A stretch of 64,000 nt of DNA, taken from positions 13,473,868-13,537,867 of the forward strand of contig NC_072791.1 in assembly GCF_028583425.1 (NCBI RefSeq), written 5' to 3'. The translations under genes and the position numbers were made by a program. Shown here in pieces: positions 996-62,764 of the stretch. This DNA comes from Eublepharis macularius (lineage: Eukaryota > Chordata > Lepidosauria > Squamata > Eublepharidae). Under the pieces are notes generated by a model. It did not search any database, was not told the origin of the DNA, and saw only the letters and a list, made by a program, of their open reading frames with translations. Positions within the stretch are counted from its first letter, which is position 1. Each line of letters opens with the position of its first letter.

Positions 996-2400
996 GATAT
1001 GATATGATACAATATGGTATGATATGATATGACCTGGACATTTTATCATATCCCTGCTGAGTTCCTTCAAACTCTGCCATCATCAGACACCACCCCCAAA
1101 TTTCCAGGAATTTCCCAACTCTATAAAAGATGCACAAAAACAGACATATGGGTGGCAGGGGCAGGGGTAGTCACCGCATCTGATAGTAAAGTGATTGGTC
1201 CCTATGTGGCTTGTAAAAGCAGCCAAACCAGCCCACTCATAGACAAAGCTGAGATCTCTACAGTCTTGGTGGAACCTGTTCCTACAAATGAAAAAAATAA
1301 CCTTGCAAATTAACTCAAAGAAGACAACCTTGAAAACACTGGCCAGTTGAGAGCCAGATATGTTCCAGAAGTCCAGGATGCCCGAGAGCATCCTGGAAAG
1401 GAGGGGGGAAATTAGCCTGTACAAGCCTTCCAGTACTTAAAGAATCCTGGACGGGGAAATCTCAGGACTGGGGAGGGGATTTCCAAGCTGTTTTCCTCTC
1501 GATTCCTCACAGCCCCCTTCCTCCCCACCACCAACTTCTATATATTAAACTATTCAAATTGCCTCCAGAGTTGCTGTGTCCTGTGGGTTCTGGAGTCTGA
1601 AAACGGGGAAGGGATTGGTCCAGACCAACTAAAGCGAAAAAGAATCGGCAGGAAACTGCCTTAGTTGTACACAGGATATGATTTAGATTGATTTAGATAG
1701 AGCGTAGCCATGGGAAACAATGGTTAGGCATCAACATGACTGACATAGAAACACAAGGCAAGCAGGCTTGCGCATGCACGATGTGGCCCTATTAGATGAG
1801 GATAATAAGATTGAGAATTAATCCCTCCTCTTTTGAATCAGACAATTAGGGACTGGTGGTTAGAGGGCTATGGAGACCTTTAGAGCTTGCATGAGAGAGA
1901 GAGATTTAAACCACACCACTTCTGACCTCTGTGATTCCTGGGCTAAGTTGAGCCATGTGCCAATCACCCGACATATACAGTCCAAACTAAGCAGCTCTCC
2001 CTGTAGCTTTGCATCTTACACATTAATCTGTTGTATCTCTGGGGTCACTTCCATCCACTGACCAACCCGGATCAACAGAAGAATTTAAACCTCCAAATGC
2101 ATTAAGCACGGCAGCCTCGCAGATCTCAAAAAAGTTAGCGAGGTGACACAAGGCAAATTGAATGTTCTACCATTGGTGTTTGATTTGCAATGGCTCGTTC
2201 ACAATGCATGGCACTTAATGCTAATTGCTGAGCTTTGTACACAGAAACTAAAGTCCAACTGAAATTTTGCACACATTCAGTGTTCGGTGATGTTTTGCAT
2301 TGGAATCTCGACTTTGTTTTAAAATCAATGTTTTAAAGTGTTTACATTCAAATTTTCAGGAGCAATTTGAAAAAAAATGAAATCATAATTTAGGAGTCCT
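996..2400. other. Mostly unassigned sequence
   Basis: A short GATAT-type simple repeat lies at 1000-1031 and a minus-strand AGGGTTGCCA-family hAT fragment at about 1057-1125. From 2080 to 2400 the sequence is AT-rich and free of repeats I know, and could be conserved noncoding DNA. No codon structure is seen. Confidence 0.4.
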
Positions 2401-2491
2401 AGCAATGCAGCCTTAAGCAGAATTATATCTTTCAAGTCAATTGAAGCCAATGTTCTCAGAAGGGTATAAATCTAGTTCAGGATTGTACTGT
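2401..2491. mobile_element. Palindromic MITE relic with GCAATCCTA-type ends
   Basis: Ends resemble CAGTGCAATCCTA and its inverse, with a 'ccaatg' centre. Similar pieces occur at 59051-59150 and 63588-63672. The target duplication is not visible. Confidence 0.45.
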
Positions 2492-2504
2492 ACGATCCAA
2501 GCAG

Positions 2505-2780
2505 CTAGTATGATTCATAGGAGGACAGCCGAAAGAAACAACTTCTTTACACAGTGCCTAAACAAGACATGGCTAAGCTGCTAGCTTAGCTGGCTTGAAA
2601 AGAAACTGGACAAATTTCGGGACTGGTCTATCAATAGGTATCAGCATTAATGGCTAGATTGGAGCTCCATATTTAGAATACTCATTGTAGGGGGCAATAG
2701 TGCAGGAGGCTATTGCCTTCAGTACTGCTTGTGGGATTCCTGGAGGCATCTAGTGGGGCTCTTCTTTTAAGAGAACCGAC
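2505..2780 (+). mobile_element. CR1/L2-clade LINE 3' fragment
   Basis: Resembles the common 3' end block of sauropsid CR1/L2 LINEs: a 'cttctttacac' segment, a 'tggacaaattt' segment and a 'taatggctag' segment in the expected order. The copy is old and the reading frame is lost. Confidence 0.45.
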
Positions 2781-2784
2781 CAGC

Positions 2785-2990
2785 ATGGTGTACTGGTTAG
2801 AGTATCAGATTGGAATCTGGAAGACCCAGTTTGGAATCTCCACTATACCACAGAAGCTTCCTTGGTGACCTTGGAACAATCACACATTCTCAGCCTAACC
2901 TACCTCTCAGGAACGTTGCGAGGATAAAATGTAGACGGAGAGAATTTTGCAAGCCTCTATAGGTCACCATTGCAGGTGGAGGATTAGGCT
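2785..2990 (+). mobile_element. tRNA-derived SINE (S3 family)
   Basis: Starts with GGTGTACTGGTTAGAGTATC (A-box region), then the body blocks 'gtgaccttgg' and 'tctcagcctaacctacctc'. Other copies are at 18197, 28532, 35665, 39035, 48014 and 48346. Confidence 0.75.
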
Positions 2991-2995
2991 ATATG

Positions 2996-3757
2996 TACCC
3001 CGGAGAGCGTTAAAATCAGCAAATACGAACCTGCTGGTGGTCCCTGGCCCCAGGGAGGCCCGGTTGGCCTTGACCAGGGCCAGGGCTTTTTTAGTCCTGG
3101 TCTGAACTTGGTGGAACTCTCTGATGCAGGACACTCAGCCCCGCCAAGATCTTATATCTTTTCAGCAGGTCTGTAAGACAGAGATGTTCCGCCAGGCATA
3201 CAGTTGAGGCCAGTCTTTGATTGTTTTAGGAGCCTCCCTACTGGTCTCCTGCCAGGGGGGACAATGTAAAAAATCTGCCTCCCTATAAGCACAGTCACCA
3301 GATCATTATAGACTGTGGCCCCACCCTACCCCTCCTGGGCCGTTTCCAGATGGCTTACCTGCCCCCGGAATGTCGCGCCACGTTGCAGGGAAAACGCGAA
3401 ATATCGCATTTTCTTGCGCGAGTTCTGCGCGACGTCACATGACGTCACGCAAAACTAGTGTGAGAAAACGTGATATTTTGCATTTTCCCCACAACGTGGC
3501 ACGACGTTCCGGGGGCAGGTAAGCCGTCTGGAAACGGCCCTGTTCTGCTTTGTTTTATCCCAAGATTGGGGGAATTGGAGGGGGCCTGCCATCCAAAATG
3601 CTTTTTTGTATGCATTTGTGATGGGGTTTTTTGGTTTTTAATGTATTTGTATGTTTTAATGCTTATTGAGCATTTACTATAACAGGCCCTGAGCCTGTTC
3701 ATGGGGAGGCCAGGCTAGAAATCGAACAAATAAAACAAACAAATAAATAAATATACA
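2996..3757 (+). mobile_element. L2-like LINE 3' end, split by a MITE
   Basis: Before the insertion a frame resembling the C-terminal block of L2 reverse transcriptase (…LLVVPGP… then LTRARAF) is readable, matching the L2 copy at 15380. After the insertion the tail has the L2-type ending 'gccctgagcctgttcatgg', closing in (AAAT)n. The MITE at 3338-3539 separates the parts. Confidence 0.65.
3338..3539. mobile_element. CpG-rich palindromic MITE, 3-bp target duplication
   Basis: Terminal inverted repeats begin GGCCGTTTCCAGATGGCTTA and end with the inverse. CTG flanks both ends. The interior is dense in CpG and carries TGACGTCA-like sites. Related copies: 24445, 40371 and 50259. The 3-bp duplication would fit PIF/Harbinger, but no transposase is present to confirm it. 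Confidence 0.75.
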
Positions 3758-4565
3758 TGCAGTAAATAACAGAAAAGTCCTGGGTGTCTTTGACATGGCA
3801 AACCGTTTTTTAAACAATGGGGCTCACATTCCAGCCAGAGATAGTGGAGAGCTATGAAGCAATCCACAAACCACAGGCAGCCTTGGGGTATTCCCAGAGA
3901 CGTCAGTGAATTTTCAAGGAGACAGGTCTGGAATCAGCGGTTGGTGGTGGAGAAGAGCCAGAGAGTTAGGCATCAGTGCCTGGCCTCAGCGGGTATTCCC
4001 CCTCCAAAGCTGACCTCTTCCTTCCACTGTGCAAGCTCCTGACTAACACAGACAGCCTTGTGGGGCAAACACAGCAGTCACTGCACTGAAAACGAAGGTT
4101 GGGATGACCCTAGGATCCATTCTGTGTTGCAGAACGGTAAGAAATCTGTGATCCGAGGGTGTAACATGAGATGGTGACTAAGCCTATTTTATCAAAGGAC
4201 AACACAGGTGCTTAGTCATGGTTCCCAAGGGCAGATAATTAACTGCCTAACATATTAAATTGGACTTCCATTAATTAATCAGGTGCAGCGTTTGCTGGTT
4301 AATCTGCCAGTTAAGCTGTTCAAAGCTTGCATACCTGTCCTGGGCATTCACCCAACTGGGCACTGACCAGGCAGAGATGATCTTCCCTATGGATGCTCTT
4401 CCCCTAGTCAGTCCTGTGAGAGGAGCTGGAACTAAACTGTGTGCCCTCCCTCTTTAGTCCTTTAACCAGCTTTCTTCTCCCAGCTGAGCCCTGGTTTTTT
4501 AGAACTGTGGGTCAGATGGGAAGGGGAGGTTGCCCAGCATGGGGAGACAGGGCCATAATAGAAAC
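3758..4565. other. Unassigned sequence
   Basis: No recognised repeat and no coding signal. Open frames are short and lack codon structure. Confidence 0.3.
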
Positions 4566-5070
4566 ATAGAAACATCAAGCTGGAAGGTACCCCAAAGGGT
4601 ACCTAGTCTGACCCCCTGCATAATGCAGGAAATTCACGGCTATCTCCCCCTCCAACCTTCCCCAGTGACCCCTGCTCTATACCTAGAGGAAGGCAAAAAA
4701 CCTCCAACATCTCCAGCCAATCTGTCCTAGAGGAAAATTTCTTCTTGTCCTCCTAGTGGCTGTCAGTATTACCCTAGGCTTATAAGAAAGGGCCAAACAC
4801 TGGCTCATCCCTTCATGCCCTCCCTCTCCTGATCTGTGTACATTCCTATTAAATCAGAGAATCATCATAGCTTTCAGATTACCATCTAGCCTCTTCTTAA
4901 ATACCTCCATGGAAGGAGAGCCCACCACCACCTCCCAAGGAAGCCTGTCCCACTGAGGAACTGTTCTAACCATCGGGAAGTACTTCTTAATGTTTAGCCA
5001 AAAAATCTTTTGCTTTAATTTTAACCTGTCATTTCTGGTCTGACGTGATGGGTTGCAGGACAGATCTAGG
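4566..5070 (-). mobile_element. CR1-clade LINE 3' end
   Basis: On the minus strand it ends in the CR1 3' block (a 'ctagatgac'-like segment, then a short terminal repeat). Further in, the minus strand encodes a block resembling the CR1 RT tail, LKQKIFWLNIKKYF… The copy is 5'-truncated, as is usual for CR1. Confidence 0.7.
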
Positions 5071-9435: not shown

Positions 9436-9835
9436 GGTCCATGATAACCTGATCTCATCAGATCTCAGAAGCTGAGCAGAGTTAGTACTTGAATGGGAAA
9501 TAGTAAAGAGTCTAGTAGCACCTTTAAGACTAACCAACTTATTTGTAGTGTAAGCTTTCAAGAACCACAGCTCTCTTCGTCATGAAGAGAGCCGTTGTTC
9601 TCAAAAGCTTATGCTACAAATAAGTTGGTTAGTCTTAAAGGTGCTATTGGACACTTTACTATTTTGCAACTACAGACTAACACGGCTAACTCCTCTGGAT
9701 ACTTGGATGGAAGATCACCAAGGAAAACAGAAGAGGCAGGGAATGGCAGACCTCCTCTGTTCATCTCTTACCTTGAAAACTGTTATAGGATTGCCTTAAG
9801 TCAGTTGCAACTTGATGGCAATTTACACACACAAG
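9436..9835 (+). mobile_element. 5S-rRNA-derived SINE, split by a hairpin element
   Basis: The head CTGATCTCATCAGATCTCAG then 'agaagctgagcag' is the internal promoter region of 5S rRNA. It resumes after the insertion at 'tacttggatgg' and continues into the body (gggaatggcag, ttaagtcagttg). It matches the 5S-Sauria SINE type of squamates. Confidence 0.85.
9499..9699. mobile_element. Hairpin retroelement, lineage A, nested in the 5S SINE
   Basis: Head-to-head arms of about 80 bp are followed by the 3' tail CAGACTAACACGGCTAACTC. Flanked by 13-bp duplications of the SINE (TACTTGAATGGGA / TACTTGGATGGAA). The host SINE supplies an independent reference for the pre-insertion sequence. Geometry fits twin priming or a Penelope-like insertion. 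Confidence 0.85.
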
Positions 9836-12991: not shown

Positions 12992-13204
12992 ATAGTAAAG
13001 AGTCCAGTAGCACCTTTAAGACTAACCAACTTATTTGTAGCATAAGCTTTCAAGAACCACAGCTCTCTTCGTCAGATGCGTCTGATGAAGAGAGCTGTGG
13101 TTCTCAAAAGCTTATGCTACAAATAAGTTGGTTAGTCTTAAAAGTGCTACTGGACTCTTTACTATTTTGCAACTACAGACTAACATGGCTAACTCCTCCG
13201 GATC
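12992..13204. mobile_element. Hairpin retroelement, lineage A
   Basis: Perfect 12-bp target duplication TTTCATCTCAGG (12980-12991 and 13205-13216). Head-to-head arms meet near 13080; the 3' tail is CAGACTAACATGGCTAACTC. Both arms carry the hammerhead-like motif, one per strand (13040-13079 minus; from 13077 plus). The minus arm keeps GAAA; the plus arm has AAAA. Confidence 0.85.
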
Positions 13205-13717
13205 TTTCATCTCAGGGACAAGCTGAAATGGTTCTAATAACCCTCATGAGCTACTTGGTTTAGCACAGTCGGACAGACTCAGTGTTTGTAGCTGAGTAGC
13301 AGTGGAAGAAGCTGGCTGCTGAGAGCTTGATAAAATGTTTCAAGCTCTTATCACCTTGAATAAGGTAATTGGAAAGACATGTAGGTGAAAACTAAGGAGT
13401 AAAAAAAGGGGGAGAGTTAAATTTAGTTGTGTATTATTACTGGAATAATGTTATTTTTGCAGGGGTGTAATTCCTAAGCTGAAGACAGAAGCCTGAGTTC
13501 CAGTTTGTTTCCATAACCAAGAGGATGGTAGCAAGGGACTCTGATACTAGGGGAACCTGAAAGTTGGACTTTGCTCACCTTGAAGTGCTTCCAAGTGACA
13601 ACCAGTTACTTGGCTTAACTCCAAGACATTATCAGCAGCGAGTTTCTGTCCTTTGTAGCACTGGTGTGTTTGGTTGTAAAAGTCTAGCGTTATTGGTTAG
13701 ACTCTTGAAAGGTTTTG
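13205..13717. other. Unassigned sequence
   Basis: No recognised repeat or coding region between the two lineage-A insertions. Confidence 0.3.
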
Positions 13718-13858
13718 TCCAGTCTCTGTATCAGGCATCTGACGAAGAGAACTTGATTCTCGAAAGCTTATGCTAAAATAAAATTGGTTAGTCTTAAAGG
13801 TGCTACTGGACTCTTTTTGATTTTGCTACCACAGACTAACACGGCTAACTTCTCTGCA
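13718..13858 (+). mobile_element. Penelope-like short element, lineage A, single-arm copy
   Basis: Flanked by a perfect 13-bp duplication TTGAAAGGTTTTG (13705-13717 and 13859-13871). It lacks the inverted first arm, so it shows the element in simple form: a short 5' leader, the hammerhead-like motif, then GGTTAGTCTTAAAGGTGCTA and the tail ACAGACTAACACGGCTAACT. Confidence 0.8.
13735..13773 (+). ncRNA. Candidate mini-hammerhead ribozyme (lineage A, best-preserved)
   Basis: In order: GCAT (stem I), CTGACGA (core), an extra A, GAGAA / TTCTC with a 5-base CTTGA loop (stem II, 5 pairs), GAA, AGCT (self-complementary, replacing a closed stem III), T13769 as the predicted cleavage base, ATGC (stem I partner, 4 pairs). 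All conserved hammerhead bases are present. The extra base between the core and stem II departs from the textbook motif. Activity is not shown by sequence alone. Confidence 0.6.
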
Positions 13859-13866
13859 TTGAAAGG

Positions 13867-13870
<4 letters not shown>

Positions 13871-13918
<48 letters not shown>
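13871..13918 (+). repeat. (GAT)16 microsatellite
   Basis: Perfect trinucleotide array that starts at the right target duplication of the preceding element. The Asp-run and Met-run frames across it are artefacts of the repeat. Confidence 0.95.
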
Positions 13919-14745: not shown

Positions 14746-15379
14746 GCAATTGAAAGGAACAGAAAACTTGGGTTTAAAGAAAAAAACATTGAACGCTGAG
14801 CTTTTCTGGGTGCTAAATTTTGCATTTAGTCTCCAATTCTGTGCTTGCATAATTGCAGAATCATGAAATCTTCCTGGACTACAGTAGTCCCTTACATTCA
14901 TAACAATAGATGTAATTCATGCCACATTTTTGAAACCCATAGCAAAATTCCTCTTGCTTTAAAGAGTTCTGGATTGCGCCAGCATTCCATCCCTCCTCAC
15001 AAACCAACCTATAATTTTTGCCTTTGCTGGGAGCAGAAATGACTAAGCTGTGAGTATTTACAAGGCAAATTGGTGTGAGTGGAGAGAGCATATGTGGGAG
15101 AGAGTGCCATGCCTGCGAAAACAAGGGAAAGCACCATAGGGTTTTCCCCTATGAAATTGGCACAGTGCTACAGGGTTTTTATACCAACACTGCAAGGATA
15201 GGTTGATTGGAACAGAAAAGCACACAAAATAAATGGCTTCAGATATTCTAGCTCTTTCTAGGCTCAAAAAATCTGCTCACCTTTAGGAGAATTATAGGAC
15301 AGGTAGACATCCAACAGGTACGGCCTTTGCCAGCAGCATTGAGCTATGGCATGGAAACTGGCTGAATTTCTGGATGTTG
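14746..15379. other. Unassigned sequence
   Basis: No recognised repeat. Short open frames on both strands lack codon structure. Confidence 0.3.
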
Positions 15380-16025
15380 TACGGATGCCCAATAGCCCGA
15401 GCAGGGCAGAGATGTCCAGTCCCTTTAACAGAGACACATTCATCCTGTGCTGTGCCAGCTGCACTCCCAGTGGAGTTCCGGATCTGGTTCAAGGTATTAA
15501 CCTTGGTGTTTAAAGCCCTTCACGGACTGGGACCGGCGTACCTGCGGGACCGCCTCTCCCATTACATCTCCTGCAGGGCGTTGCGCTCTGCAGACAATCA
15601 ACTCCTGATGGTCCCCAGCCCGAAGGACATCCGTCTGGCCTCAACCAGGGCCAGGGCTTTTTCTGCCCTGGCCCTGGCCCGGTGGAACGCTCTCCCGCTG
15701 GAGATCCGGGCCCTGCGGGACCTGTTACAGTTTCACAGGCCTATAAAATGGAGACGTTTCGTCGGGCCTTCGGCTGAGTGCCAGCAGGTGTCCTCCTTCT
15801 TCCATCTAAGACCACCACTTCTTCTGGGGCTGCCCTCGGCCATCTGCTATGCCCGTATACAGACTCCCAATAATTGTTTAAATAGCCTGCTCCTGGACTA
15901 TTTTAATGACTTTTTAAAGATTATTGATTTTATGTTTTTGTGACTTTTAATGTATTTTTTTTAATGTTGTTAGCCGCCCTGAGCCCATCTGTGGGGAGGG
16001 CGGGGTATAAATCAAATAAATAAAT
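15380..16025 (+). mobile_element. L2-like LINE 3' end with RT C-terminus
   Basis: A frame encodes the L2 RT tail: PVEFRIWFKVLTLVFKALHG, then LGPAYLRDRL, LRSADNQLLMVP and ALARWNALPLEIR. The frame is lost after 'DLLQF', where one base appears missing relative to the family pattern. The 3' UTR ends GAGGGCGGGGTATAAATC and (AAAT)n. Apparently one of the younger L2-like copies here. Confidence 0.85.
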
Positions 16026-17591: not shown

Positions 17592-17969
17592 AAACTTACA
17601 GCGTTAATTAGAGACAAAACACTCTCTATATTCATGACAAATTGGAAACCCTTTAGGGACCATCTGCGAGAGACGAAGAAAAATAAATTAATGATTTGTG
17701 ATTTTGATTTTTAAGAATAAGGATTTGGGATATCAAGAGATACAGAAAAAAAGATATTAATTAGACCACAATACTAAAGGAGGAGGTGTTGTAGGCTAAA
17801 AACTGTAATGGAGTAACAATATGCTTAGTATACTTTTTACTATTTTCTTTGATCGTTATGTAGGCCACTGTTGGCTCCTTGTATTTATGTTTTTGTTATG
17901 TTTTACTTTCCTTCTTTTGCTCTATTTTTTAACTTTTTCTTAATTAAAATAAAAAATAATTTAAAAAAA
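17592..17969 (+). mobile_element. L1-like LINE 3' end with poly(A)
   Basis: A T-rich 3' UTR ends AATTAAAATAAAAAATAA then a poly(A)-like tail. Imperfect 11-bp duplications flank it (GAACGTAGGCC at 17581 and GAACATAGGTC at 17970). Strongly 5'-truncated. Confidence 0.65.
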
Positions 17970-34454: not shown

Positions 34455-35105
34455 AAAGGGGAGGGCATGCTGGTGGGCATTTCCTCCTCCATCACTGATC
34501 CTGGCCAGTGAAGGCAGGGGAGGAGGGTACGGCCACTTCCTCTGCACCTGATCTCGGCTGAGTGAAGGGGGTGGGCATTGCCTCCTCCATTACTGATCCT
34601 GGCCAGTGAAGGCAGGGGAGGAGGGTACGGCCACTTCCTCTGCACCTGATCTCAGCTGAGTGAAGGGGGTGGGCGTTCCCTCCTCCATTACTGATCCTGG
34701 TCAGTGAAGGCAGGGGAGGAGGGTACGGCCACTTCCTCTGCACCTGATCTCGGCTGAGTGAAGGGGGTGGGCGTTCCCTCCTCCATCACTGATCCTGGCC
34801 AGTGAAGGCAGGGGAGGAGGGTACGGCTACTTCCTCTGCACCTGATCTCGGCTGAGTGAAGGGGGTGGGCGTTCCCTCCTCCATCACTGATCCTGGCCAG
34901 TGAAGGCAGGGGAGGAGGGTACGGCCACTTCCTCTGCACCTGATCTTGGCTGAGTGAAGGGGGTGGGCATTGCCTCCTGCTCCGCACCTGATCCCAGCTG
35001 GGTGAAGGCAGGGTCGGGCATTACCACCTGCTCCACTCCTGTTCCCAGCTGGCTGAAGGCGGGAGGCGGGTATTGCTGCCTGCTCCACACCTGATCCTGG
35101 CCTGG
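34455..35105 (+). repeat. Minisatellite with 98-bp higher-order unit
   Basis: The block GGGTACGGCCACTTCCTCTG recurs at an exact 98-bp spacing five times (34525, 34623, 34721, 34819, 34917). Each 98-mer looks like two diverged ~49-bp halves sharing 'ctgatc…ggc…gtgaagg'. After 34975 the array continues as degenerate ~50-bp single units. The repetitive minus-strand frames are by-products. Confidence 0.9.
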
Positions 35106-38756: not shown

Positions 38757-38848
38757 ATGCATCTGACAAAGAGAACTGTGATTCTCAAAAGCTTATGCTA
38801 CAATAAAGTTGGTTAGTCTTAAAGGTGCTACTGGACTCTTTTTGATTT
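38757..38848 (+). mobile_element. Lineage A element, single arm, tail-less
   Basis: Carries GCAT, CTGACAA, GAGAA / TTCTC around CTGTGA, then AAAAGCTTATGC and GGTTAGTCTTAAAGGTGCTA. It stops before the CAGACTAACACGG tail. Confidence 0.7.
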
Positions 38849-42379: not shown

Positions 42380-42720
42380 CAGGATCCGAGTCGTGTAGCA
42401 CCTTAAAGGCTAGCAAGATTTCCAGGGAATAAGCTTTCAAGAGTCAAAGCTCCCTTCTTCAGATACAAGTAGGAATAGAGGTTCTCGAGCGCTTATGTCC
42501 CAGTTGTAAGCTGGGAGGAGTGTGACAAAGAAGGCAGTCAGGATGCAAAAGTACAATGCAAAATGTAGTCTGCTTGACCAACACAGTCCTCCTAACTTCT
42601 TATTAGGATGTAAGGGCTGAGGGATCTCCATTCCTTCTTGTATTTGACAAAGGGAGTTTTGACTCTCAAAAGCTTATACCCCGGAAATCTTGCTGGTCTT
42701 TAAGAACTTGATTCTACGAG
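42380..42720. mobile_element. Hairpin retroelement, lineage B, with long spacer
   Basis: Left arm (GAGTCGTGTAGCACCTTAAA…) and right arm (CTTATACCCCGGAAATCTTG…) are separated by about 150 bp. The right arm keeps GTAT / ATAC stem I (42640 and about 42676) and GGGAG / CTCTC stem II; the core has decayed. Confidence 0.7.
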
Positions 42721-46707: not shown

Positions 46708-46800
46708 TGCTGATATCTGATGAAGGGAGCTTTGACTCTCAAATGCTTATACCCTGGAGATCTTGTTCTTCTTTAAGGTGCTACTGATGTCCGATCTTTC
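46708..46800 (+). mobile_element. Lineage B element, single arm
   Basis: ATAT, CTGATGA, A, GGGAG / CTCTC around CTTTGA, then AAATGCTTATACCCTGGAGA and 'ttctttaaggtgctactg'. Most of the hammerhead plan is visible. Confidence 0.7.
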
Positions 46801-50509: not shown

Positions 50510-50600
50510 AGTATCTGATGAAGGGAATTTTAACTCTTGAAAGTTTATATCTTGAAAATCTTTTTGGTCTTTGAAGTGTTACTGGATTCAAATCTTGCGG
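50510..50600 (+). mobile_element. Lineage B element, single arm
   Basis: GTAT, CTGATGA, A, GGGAA / CTCTT-like stem, GAAAGTTTATATCTTG, then 'ttggtctttgaagtgttactgg'. It starts exactly at the MITE end. Confidence 0.6.
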
Positions 50601-60800: not shown

Positions 60801-60881
60801 TCTACCATAAGAGTTGCAACTTTTATGAGGTTTTATTATTATTTTTTTACTTGGGTAGCTATGTGTTCTGCAGAAGAACAG

Positions 60882-62690
60882 CAGGATTTGAGTCAGGTGG
60901 CTCCTTAGAGACCAACAGTGTATAAGCTTTTGAAAGTTAGAGCGCTCTTCTAAACATATTTGAAGAAGGGAGATTTGACTCTCAAAAGCTTACACCCTGG
61001 AAATCTAGTTGGTCTTTTAAGGTGCTACTGGATCCGAATTTTGCTCAATTATTATCAGTCAACTGATAATATCAGTAGTTTGCTTGTAGTAGTTCACAGC
61101 AGGAAATCAATTCGTGCTCTGCACACTCTCAGAAACGCTCTTTTTTGTTTCACTGACCTGGGCAGTTTCACCTTTTACCTGAAGGCACCAAAACCTCTTC
61201 TACCAAGATTCAGCTCTAGTAACACTGTAAAGGCCAACTAGATTTCCCAGGGTATGAGCTTTCAAGAGTTAAAAACTCCCTTCTTCAGATACTTTATTCT
61301 GAAGAGGTTTTGACTCTCAAAAACTTTCATCTTGAATTGGTCTTTAAGATGCCACTGGACTCAAATCTTTCTTAATAATAAAAATATTAATAATATTTGT
61401 GCTTATATACCACTCTTTTAGACAGATGAGTGCCCCACTTAGAGCAGTGAACAAAGTCAGTATTATGTTTGTAGTCCATGGCAGGAAGGCAACATGTGTT
61501 CTGCACATGCTCAGAAACTCGCTTTTTTGTCTCATTGGCCCAGGGCAGCTTCACCTTCTACCTGAAACTACCTTCTACTAAGATTCGGGTCTAGTAGTGC
61601 CTTAAAGATCAACTAGATTTCCAGGGTGTAAGTTTACAAGAGTCAAAATTCCCTTATCTGTACTTTTATCTGAAGAAGGGAGCTTTGACTCTCGAAAAGT
61701 TATACCCTCTAATTGGTCTTTAAGGAGCTACTGGATCCAAATCTTGCTCAATTATCAGTCAGCTGAAGTAGATTGTTTGCAGTAGTTCATAGCAGGAAAT
61801 CAACATGAGCTCTGCACTCTCAAACCCTTTTTTATTTCATTGACCTGGGTAGCTTCACCTTCTATCTGAAGTTACCTGACATTATCATCTACAAGATTCT
61901 TGTCCAGAAGCACTTTAAAGACCAACTAGATTCCCCAGAGTATAAGTTTTCAAGAGTCAAAGCTCCTTTCTTCAAATAAAAGTACAGATAAAGTATGTGA
62001 AGAAGGAAGTTTTGACTCTCGAAAATTTACATCCTTTTAAGACCAACTAGATTTCCAGGGTATAAGCTTTTGAGAGTGAAAACTTTATCTGTACTTTTAT
62101 CTGAATTATTATTAACAATTTATTTATTTAATTTATAGCCCTCCCTCCCTGCAAGTAGGCTTAGTGTAGGTTACAACAAAAATAAAACATAGGCATAACC
62201 GTAAAATCACAAAACTTACTGTACAGCACAATTCACCTGCTCAAAGGGTGAAGGTGTGGGCTGATATCCTGCAGCTACTCATATGTGGGGGGGGGGCAGA
62301 TGACCATGTAGTAGGGTTGCCAGCTCCAAGTTGGGAAATTCCTGGAGATCTGGGGTGGGTGGGTGAAACCTGGAGAAAGTGGGGTTTGGGGAGGGAAAGC
62401 ACCTTAGCATGGCATAATTCCACAGTCCACCCCCCCTACACACACACACACCAAAGTAGACATTTTCTCCAGGTGAACTGATCTCTGTGGCCTGGAGACC
62501 TGTTGTAATTCCGGGAGATCTTCAGCCACTACCTGGAGGCTGGCAACCCTACCATATAGCCCCCCCCCACAGGTGGGACACCTGCAGAGAGACTCATTTG
62601 ATGGATTTAATGAAGAGAGAGCGTTGCCTCTCAAAAACTTATATCCTCTCATTGGTCTTTAAGGCGCTCCTGGACCTGACTTTCTCTCAA
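60882..62690. repeat. Tandem array of lineage B hairpins with shared linkers
   Basis: Hairpins at 60882-61048, 61204-61376, 61585-61752, 61906-62115 and a half at 62595-62690. Linkers at about 61070-61190, 61464-61575 and 61766-61885 are alike (gcaggaaatcaa, gctctgcac, tcattgacctggg, agcttcaccttctacctgaa). An S1 SINE piece lies at 61372-61462, a SINE/LINE tail at 62105-62235 and a hAT MITE at 62311-62550. Confidence 0.75.
62311..62550 (+). mobile_element. hAT-type MITE (AGGGTTGCCA family), full length
   Basis: The 8-mers ACCATGTA and ACCATATA flank it. Starts GTAGGGTTGCCAGCTCCAAG and ends GGAGGCTGGCAACCCT. It is inserted within the hairpin array. Confidence 0.9.
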
Positions 62691-62764
62691 TTATTATTGC
62701 CATCAGCCCTCTGAAATAGTTTGTGGTTTATGGCGGGAGCCACGCGCGCTCTGCACAGGCTCAG

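Follow-up and report, generated by a model that had tools for sequence, protein, structure and literature searches.

A Penelope-like element of Eublepharis macularius with a minimal type I hammerhead motif in its pseudo-LTR and insertions that seem to be copied mostly from uncut RNA

The stretch of DNA analysed here (64,000 nucleotides of Eublepharis macularius, hereafter the window) contains at 13718-13858 an insertion of 141 bp, within which a small hammerhead motif is located. The features at this locus are the following.

13705-13717, unstranded: left copy of the target-site duplication, TTGAAAGGTTTTG (equalled by none of 100 random pairs)
13718-13858, plus strand: inserted copy, comprising the 5'-truncated pseudo-LTR (pLTR) and tail of a Penelope-like element, with 13-bp direct repeats on both sides
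13735-13773, plus strand: minimal type I hammerhead motif, recognized from the sequence, a scan with controls, covariation and a model built from other lineages
13822-13858, plus strand: optional tail, absent from inverted partners whose homology ends at query positions 104-109
13859-13871, unstranded: right copy of the target-site duplication, a perfect 13-bp repeat

The limits of the insert, as proposed in an earlier reading made from the sequence only, are borne out by the duplication on both flanks. The end of the right copy is overlapped by a perfect (TGA)16 array (13870-13918). Target-site duplications were sought for 13 units and were clear in three (13718-13858, 12992-13204 and 46713-46798), those of the others being weak or absent. 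When the insert was used to search the species' own genome (2.24 Gb, 72 contigs), 40 of 176 candidates were scored, and all 40, from many contigs, were identical over 141 bp. Eight of these have an inverted piece alongside, which in four cases ends at query 104, 105, 106 and 109 and in the other four at 48-56. The idea that 13718-13734 is a private remnant of a deleted inverted arm (61 of 2000 shuffles were as good) was dropped, since the whole 141 bp is repeated and the upstream letters are those of the pLTR.

In the motif, stem I is formed by 13735-13738 with 13770-13773 (4 bp) and can be lengthened by a G.U pair (13734-13774). It is followed by the core CUGACGA (13739-13745), a single extra A (13746), a 5-bp stem II (13747-13751 with 13757-13761) enclosing the loop 13752-13756, GAA (13762-13764), a self-complementary AGCU (13765-13768) in the place of stem III, and U17 (13769), directly 3' of which the cut is predicted. 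The CUGANGA and GAA core and the H17 before stem I are those of a hammerhead. Stem III, which hammerheads normally possess, is represented by AGCU without a loop and cannot close inside one RNA; passages of PMC6155905 and PMC7761336 give such a stem III as the mark of a minimal subgroup belonging to Penelope-like elements (PLEs). On re-reading the sequence, the letters and coordinates given by the sequence-only reading proved correct. Its description of a miniature hammerhead of Penelope-like type with an intact core agrees with the sequence, the scan and the element context, and the vestigial, self-complementary stem III is there in the letters. It had also called the extra A both unusual and shared by other lineages. 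The sharing holds, the base being invariant in the 18 aligned window copies which keep the 5' core and occurring in all 60 whole hammerheads from a genome sample (from the first 100 copies listed); "unusual" does not, as it falls within the published range. The motif is real and rightly placed, and the observation is confirmed, while the interpretation as a whole is partly supported.

A relaxed hammerhead scan of the 64-kb window returned four perfect-core candidates (13739+, 13075-, 50515+ and 61288-) against one altogether in 20 Markov-1 control windows. With one core mismatch permitted there were five in the window against six across the 20 controls. The fold energy of 13734-13774 is ordinary (29 of 200 shuffles were as good). 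Since the motif was inherited from a repeat family, conservation of structure is a better test than a chance scan, and a covariance model derived from 14 copies outside lineage A matches 13733-13774 with an E-value of 8.4e-6. The Rfam hammerhead models, which had been proposed as a check, did not match the motif: nothing was found in Rfam at gathering scores and no hammerhead at E-values up to 10, a match of this kind being a test of detection and not the definition of a hammerhead. Matches of Rfam microRNA models to a head-to-head pair at 13006-13151 were far below the cut-offs and were discarded, such a pair being a long hairpin and hence prone to them. Pattern scans for related motifs in viral and prokaryote contigs gave 3, 0, 21 and at least 118 stretches; none of 142 loci passed a filter on core plus stems, and they were therefore taken as chance.

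The window contains 27 copies of the pLTR family (nhmmer, E-values below 1e-3). Besides the one at 13718, they include the following.

9497-9699, unstranded: second head-to-head lineage A pair, with an 11-bp duplication that has one mismatch and is weak (7 of 100 random pairs were as good)
12992-13204, unstranded: head-to-head lineage A pair, a single insertion unit with a 12-bp duplication, TTTCATCTCAGG
38757-38846, plus strand: lineage A copy, core changes G8A and G12A
46713-46798, plus strand: solo lineage B copy without tail, G12A, with a 14-bp duplication containing one mismatch (2 of 100 random pairs were as good)
50511-50597, plus strand: lineage B copy, full core, U-A replacing C-G in stem I, U11.1
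61205-61292, minus strand: lineage B copy, full core, U11.1

Sixteen of the 27 copies form eight head-to-head pairs, four of which lie in one diverged array near 61 kb. There, at 60880-62700, lineage B copies are densely clustered as four head-to-head pairs at a spacing of about 330-375 bp with shared flanks; the cluster resembles a tandem array of paired copies that has diverged. In the pair at 12992-13204 the minus arm has a full core with U11.1 and the plus arm has G12A, and in that at 9497-9699 the junction deletion reaches into both hammerheads. The minus arms of these two pairs start at the same place (ATAGTAAAGAGTC), and both pairs carry TTCTTG in the minus arm and TTCTCA in the plus arm; the two arms may have spread together as one unit. 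Elsewhere, inverted arms of 123 nt at 42402-42704 (77% complementary, 57 nt between them) correspond to a lineage B pair that includes longer upstream parts of the pLTR. The window also has a 98-bp minisatellite of 5.2 copies followed by a 51-bp one of 3.2 copies (34472-35097), and a 218-codon open frame at 15287-15943.

CUGANGA and GAA are both kept in seven of the 27 window copies, three of which keep C11.1 too; only the copy at 13735 combines the core, C11.1 and four stem I pairs. The step C11.1-G12 reads CG in 5, TG in 8 and CA in 14 window copies, as tallied by hand because the automatic pattern was silent on six rows (8293+ is uncertain). The younger genome sample (n=60) gave CG 51, CA 5, TG 3 and GA 1. 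TG and CA are what CpG decay would be expected to yield. A G10.1-C11.1 pair gives any hammerhead a CpG at C11.1-G12, and one of the two decay products loses G12, which passages of PMC6155905 name as the general base of the hammerhead. A literature search on hammerhead CpG deamination in retrotransposons returned nothing on this subject, as judged by title.

For covariation, 24 of the 27 copies were aligned, 72+, 8293+ and 62084- being left out. Absence of stem covariation, combined with a lack of cleavage, had been named as what would speak against the sequence-only reading; covariation is present, with stems I and II paired in 82.3% of cells as compared with 26-53% in slid controls. Restricted to the 18 rows which keep the 5' core (dropping 9582-, 9582+, 60957-, 61663-, 62605+ and 61297+), the value is 87.0%, against 25-55% in slid controls. 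The second pair of stem I is U-A in 14 rows (lineage B) and C-G in four (lineage A), and that of stem II is G-U in 13, A-U in 8 and U-A in 2 rows (51006- and 20522+). With 24 rows, neither the paired percentage nor the covariation score was reached by any of 500 shuffles, the number of doubly changed pairs was reached by 141 of 500 and that of pair types by 137 of 500; with 18 rows the latter two were reached by 22 and 91 of 500. Some compensatory change is seen in both stems I and II, with two of the five measures often equalled by shuffles. Because many covarying cells share descent, such changes arose independently only a few times, perhaps in two or three events. This bears on whether the motif might be a passive relic, kept by descent from a young source alone and having no present function. 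Youth alone explains the intactness of the copy at 13735, since all 40 matches that were scored agree with it over the full 141 bp; the compensatory change in older lineages, however, suggests that structure was kept in the sources while the sequence changed, and we regard a mere relic as very unlikely.

Across the genome the 39-nt ribozyme sequence occurs exactly 6,584 times (3250 and 3334 on the two strands; the reversed control occurs 0 times) and 15,545 times with up to three mismatches, which corrects the notion that an intact copy is a genomic rarity. Other copies run upstream into a longer pLTR, and two loci (L143 and L147) extend through the end of a reading frame, with 99.4% identity over 1,481 bp. 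Another locus, L181, possesses two pLTRs in direct orientation, each containing the exact ribozyme (1908+ and 5051+). Its open frame (1930-4731, 934 codons), the first ATG of which lies 92 nt 3' of the predicted cut, contains RVT_1 (E-value 1.7e-11, 44.7 bits) and GIY-YIG domains (E-value 1.4e-4, 22.6 bits, only just at the Pfam cut-off of 22.6). A PDB sequence search with this frame gave nothing at E-values up to 0.01. A single frame with reverse transcriptase and GIY-YIG, together with direct pLTRs, inverted copies, target-site duplication and an optional tail, is what characterizes a Penelope-like element, and the location of the motif in such a pLTR is that of the minimal PLE hammerheads. 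The element appears to have been recently active.

Among the first 100 exact copies listed, all 20 pairs of neighbours within 2 kb are head-to-head. For neighbours of the downstream pattern, among the first 100 listed and with segmental duplicates included, the figure is 23 of 25 pairs within 2 kb; within 4 kb, 27 of 34 are head-to-head, five direct and two tail-to-tail. Tandem repeats of the retrozyme kind, which are short and non-coding and each carry a hammerhead, were not seen among the first 100 copies listed, where two direct pairs lie within 500 bp, both at 487 bp. The first 100 places listed lie together at an end of contig C1 and do not sample the genome at random. At about 4.6-6.6 Mb of this contig, several copies are found repeatedly, with neighbours and spacings unchanged, and 29 of 100 listed rows are duplicates by flank, which suggests segmental duplication or assembly redundancy. 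At five loci (L143, L144, L146, L147 and L148) an older hammerhead-like palindrome of another lineage (CAGATGCATCTG) is located upstream of the pLTR, in the 3' part of the element, as though the source element had taken up an older pair.

The predicted folding depends strongly on the ends chosen. Using Vienna, 13731-13780 favours the hammerhead (stem I probability 0.84-0.88) and transcripts from 13731 or 13735 give a stem I probability of 0.33-0.41. The 13718-13858 transcript that had been proposed for cleavage assays is computed to fold otherwise, with stem probabilities of 0.01-0.03 (stem I 0.01), by a gap of only 2.2 kcal/mol (3.6 kcal/mol for 13718-13780); gaps of this size are within the error of such models, and the core contacts are outside the energy model. 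In 46 distinct contexts of the exact 39-mer, stem I reaches 0.5 in 17 when 60 nt upstream and 100 nt downstream are included and in 19 with 20 nt upstream. Contexts with the leader TCTCTGTATCAG (16 of 46) gave a stem I probability of 0.01 or less in the six printed, and those with AGTTTTGATCAG (8 of 46) more than 0.5 in four of the six printed. At L181 it varies with the ends chosen from 0.11 to 0.99 for the 5' copy and from 0.09 to 0.99 for the 3' copy.

Since AGCU has no loop with which to make stem III within one RNA, a second RNA might provide the partner. The two AGCUs would pair, stem I duplexes would form between the molecules, and both strands would be cut in trans. In the 24 aligned window copies, which come from several lineages, the majority consensus at this place is AGCU, and a nested double hammerhead of two RNAs can be evaluated at -11.1 kcal/mol. 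Such minimal hammerhead RNAs reportedly cleave as dimers (Lunse et al., 2017). Two monomer folds (2 x -6.1 kcal/mol), however, total -12.2 kcal/mol, so that this energy model shows no gain from dimerization; its best dimer opens stem II into an intermolecular duplex. Moreover, the nearest studied relative, PAc of Anolis, argues against an unaided dimer. Its hammerhead is inactive without protein and active with endonuclease-dead protein (PMC11167929). We would give cleavage in trans somewhat less than an even chance. A protein-assisted ribozyme as in PAc, in which the protein would bind the RNA near the tail and the hammerhead would then fold and cut late in the cycle, has slightly less than an even chance and, from that relative, is at least as likely as dimer cleavage. 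In its favour are an architecture similar to that of PAc, by published description, and the insertion ends treated below, which show no clear pile-up at the cut site. Against it, the first ATG here follows the cut, whereas the frame of PAc begins at stem II and is cut 26 bp inside (PMC11167929).

With cut RNA as the usual template, insertions would be expected to begin at A1.1, the cut site. Among the first 100 listed of 17,630 copies (71 distinct), 60 have the hammerhead in full, and at the cut site there are no starts; among the 71 distinct copies there are ten starts 19-34 nt before A1.1 and one 11 nt after it. Genome copies with a letter other than T before A1.1 number 197, as compared with 194 for the position one base downstream and 147 for that one base upstream. 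Because these counts include point changes, 40, 20 and 20 copies, respectively, were fetched for inspection, the 20 rows of the downstream control being taken after six at the head of the list that appear to be segmental duplicates. On inspection by eye, 23 of 40 at the cut site, 8 of 20 in the downstream control and 12 of 20 in the upstream control are without an upstream hammerhead. Automatic labels placed a hammerhead upstream in 16 and 19 of 40, 12 of 20 and 9 of 20; a few rows were misplaced, so the counts by eye were used. Scaled accordingly, about 113 starts are estimated at the cut site, 78 one base downstream and 88 one base upstream, all with large sampling error. Starts may be mildly in excess at the cut site, which junctions to an inverted arm would account for: six of the 40 sampled copies with a letter other than T before ATGC read CTTCGTCAG joined to ATGCTA, in which an inverted arm with a whole hammerhead meets the copy at the four letters common to both. 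If the total is put roughly at 17,630, about 1% of copies or fewer have the cut site as their 5' end. As there is no clear pile-up at the cut site, most insertions seem to have been copied from uncut RNA.

The same junctions raise the question of whether the fold acts at the level of DNA, or as a binding site, and is no ribozyme. The 3' end of the cDNA (GATGC) would snap back on GCAT and prime an inverted copy. Consistent with this are the six junctions among 40, the predominance of head-to-head neighbours up to 2 kb (20 of 20 and 23 of 25 pairs, among the first 100 listed in each case), and self-priming from palindromes at such junctions, as proposed in passages of PMC3846280. Most junctions seen nevertheless fall elsewhere, microhomology joining yields the same product, and the unpaired core letters (CUGANGA, GAA) would need no keeping; we consider this explanation quite unlikely. 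A related proposal, which we judge unlikely, is that the fold is kept for something other than trimming the template, insertions coming from uncut RNA and stem I priming an inverted second copy; with an uncut template and priming by a self-complementary stem I, the ribozyme sequence would also shape head-to-head insertion.

Taking the evidence together, we consider it very probable that the motif is a minimal type I hammerhead in the pLTR, just 5' of the frame, of an apparently recently active Penelope-like element whose usual template would be uncut RNA. In the RNA, stems I and II would form, what the loopless AGCU cannot give within one molecule would come from a second RNA or from the protein of the element, and the strand would be cut after U17, 5' of the first ATG. 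Judging from the insertion ends, most insertions would be copied from uncut RNA, and with such a template the cut, if made, would be of use to the messenger or at a later step rather than in making the 5' end of the template.

The hammerhead at 13735 belongs to an already known kind. Minimal type I hammerheads of Penelope-like elements were reportedly described by Cervera and De la Pena (2014) and Lunse et al. (2017). As the papers citing these describe them, they share with the present motif the core, short stems I and II, the missing helix III and the location in the pLTR, whereas the copies here have an extra A between A9 and stem II, a difference from sets known by description. According to passages of PMC6155905, all PLE sequences then available carry hammerhead motifs. 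What is new here is the insertion ends, without a clear pile-up at the cut site, and that most insertions seem to be copied from uncut RNA.

The head-to-head inverted pLTRs, duplications, optional tail on one arm and junction palindromes are like those given for the Adineta vaga Penelope in passages of PMC3846280, in the searchable text of which, in contrast, ribozymes have 0 occurrences; similar paired and tail-less copies are described for Penelope elements in PMC11167929. Newt and metazoan retrozyme hammerheads, in the sections of PMC7229834 and PMC7761336 devoted to them, are likewise similar in that helix III is weak or missing in the amphibian ones, which cleave better as dimers. Those retrozymes, as described there, are small tandem non-coding repeats with loop-loop contacts, unlike the coding PLE found here, with its mostly single or head-to-head copies. 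The in vivo activity and role of PLE hammerheads are "still a mystery" in the words of a passage of PMC7761336. With 6,584 exact ribozymes in a young family, part of this question can be answered from the genome. The closest likeness is to PAc (Poseidon, Anolis carolinensis), which also combines reverse transcriptase and GIY-YIG with a hammerhead at the junction of pLTR and ORF and a tail, and differs in that its ORF starts at stem II, with the cut inside, while here the first ATG is 3' of the cut (PMC11167929). PAc insertion does not require hammerhead cleavage, and no reads were found at the cut site (PMC11167929). Uncut RNA is the main template of PAc and, as judged from insertion ends, would be that of the present element too, and the genomic insertions extend to this element what was found in vitro for one lizard element (PMC11167929).
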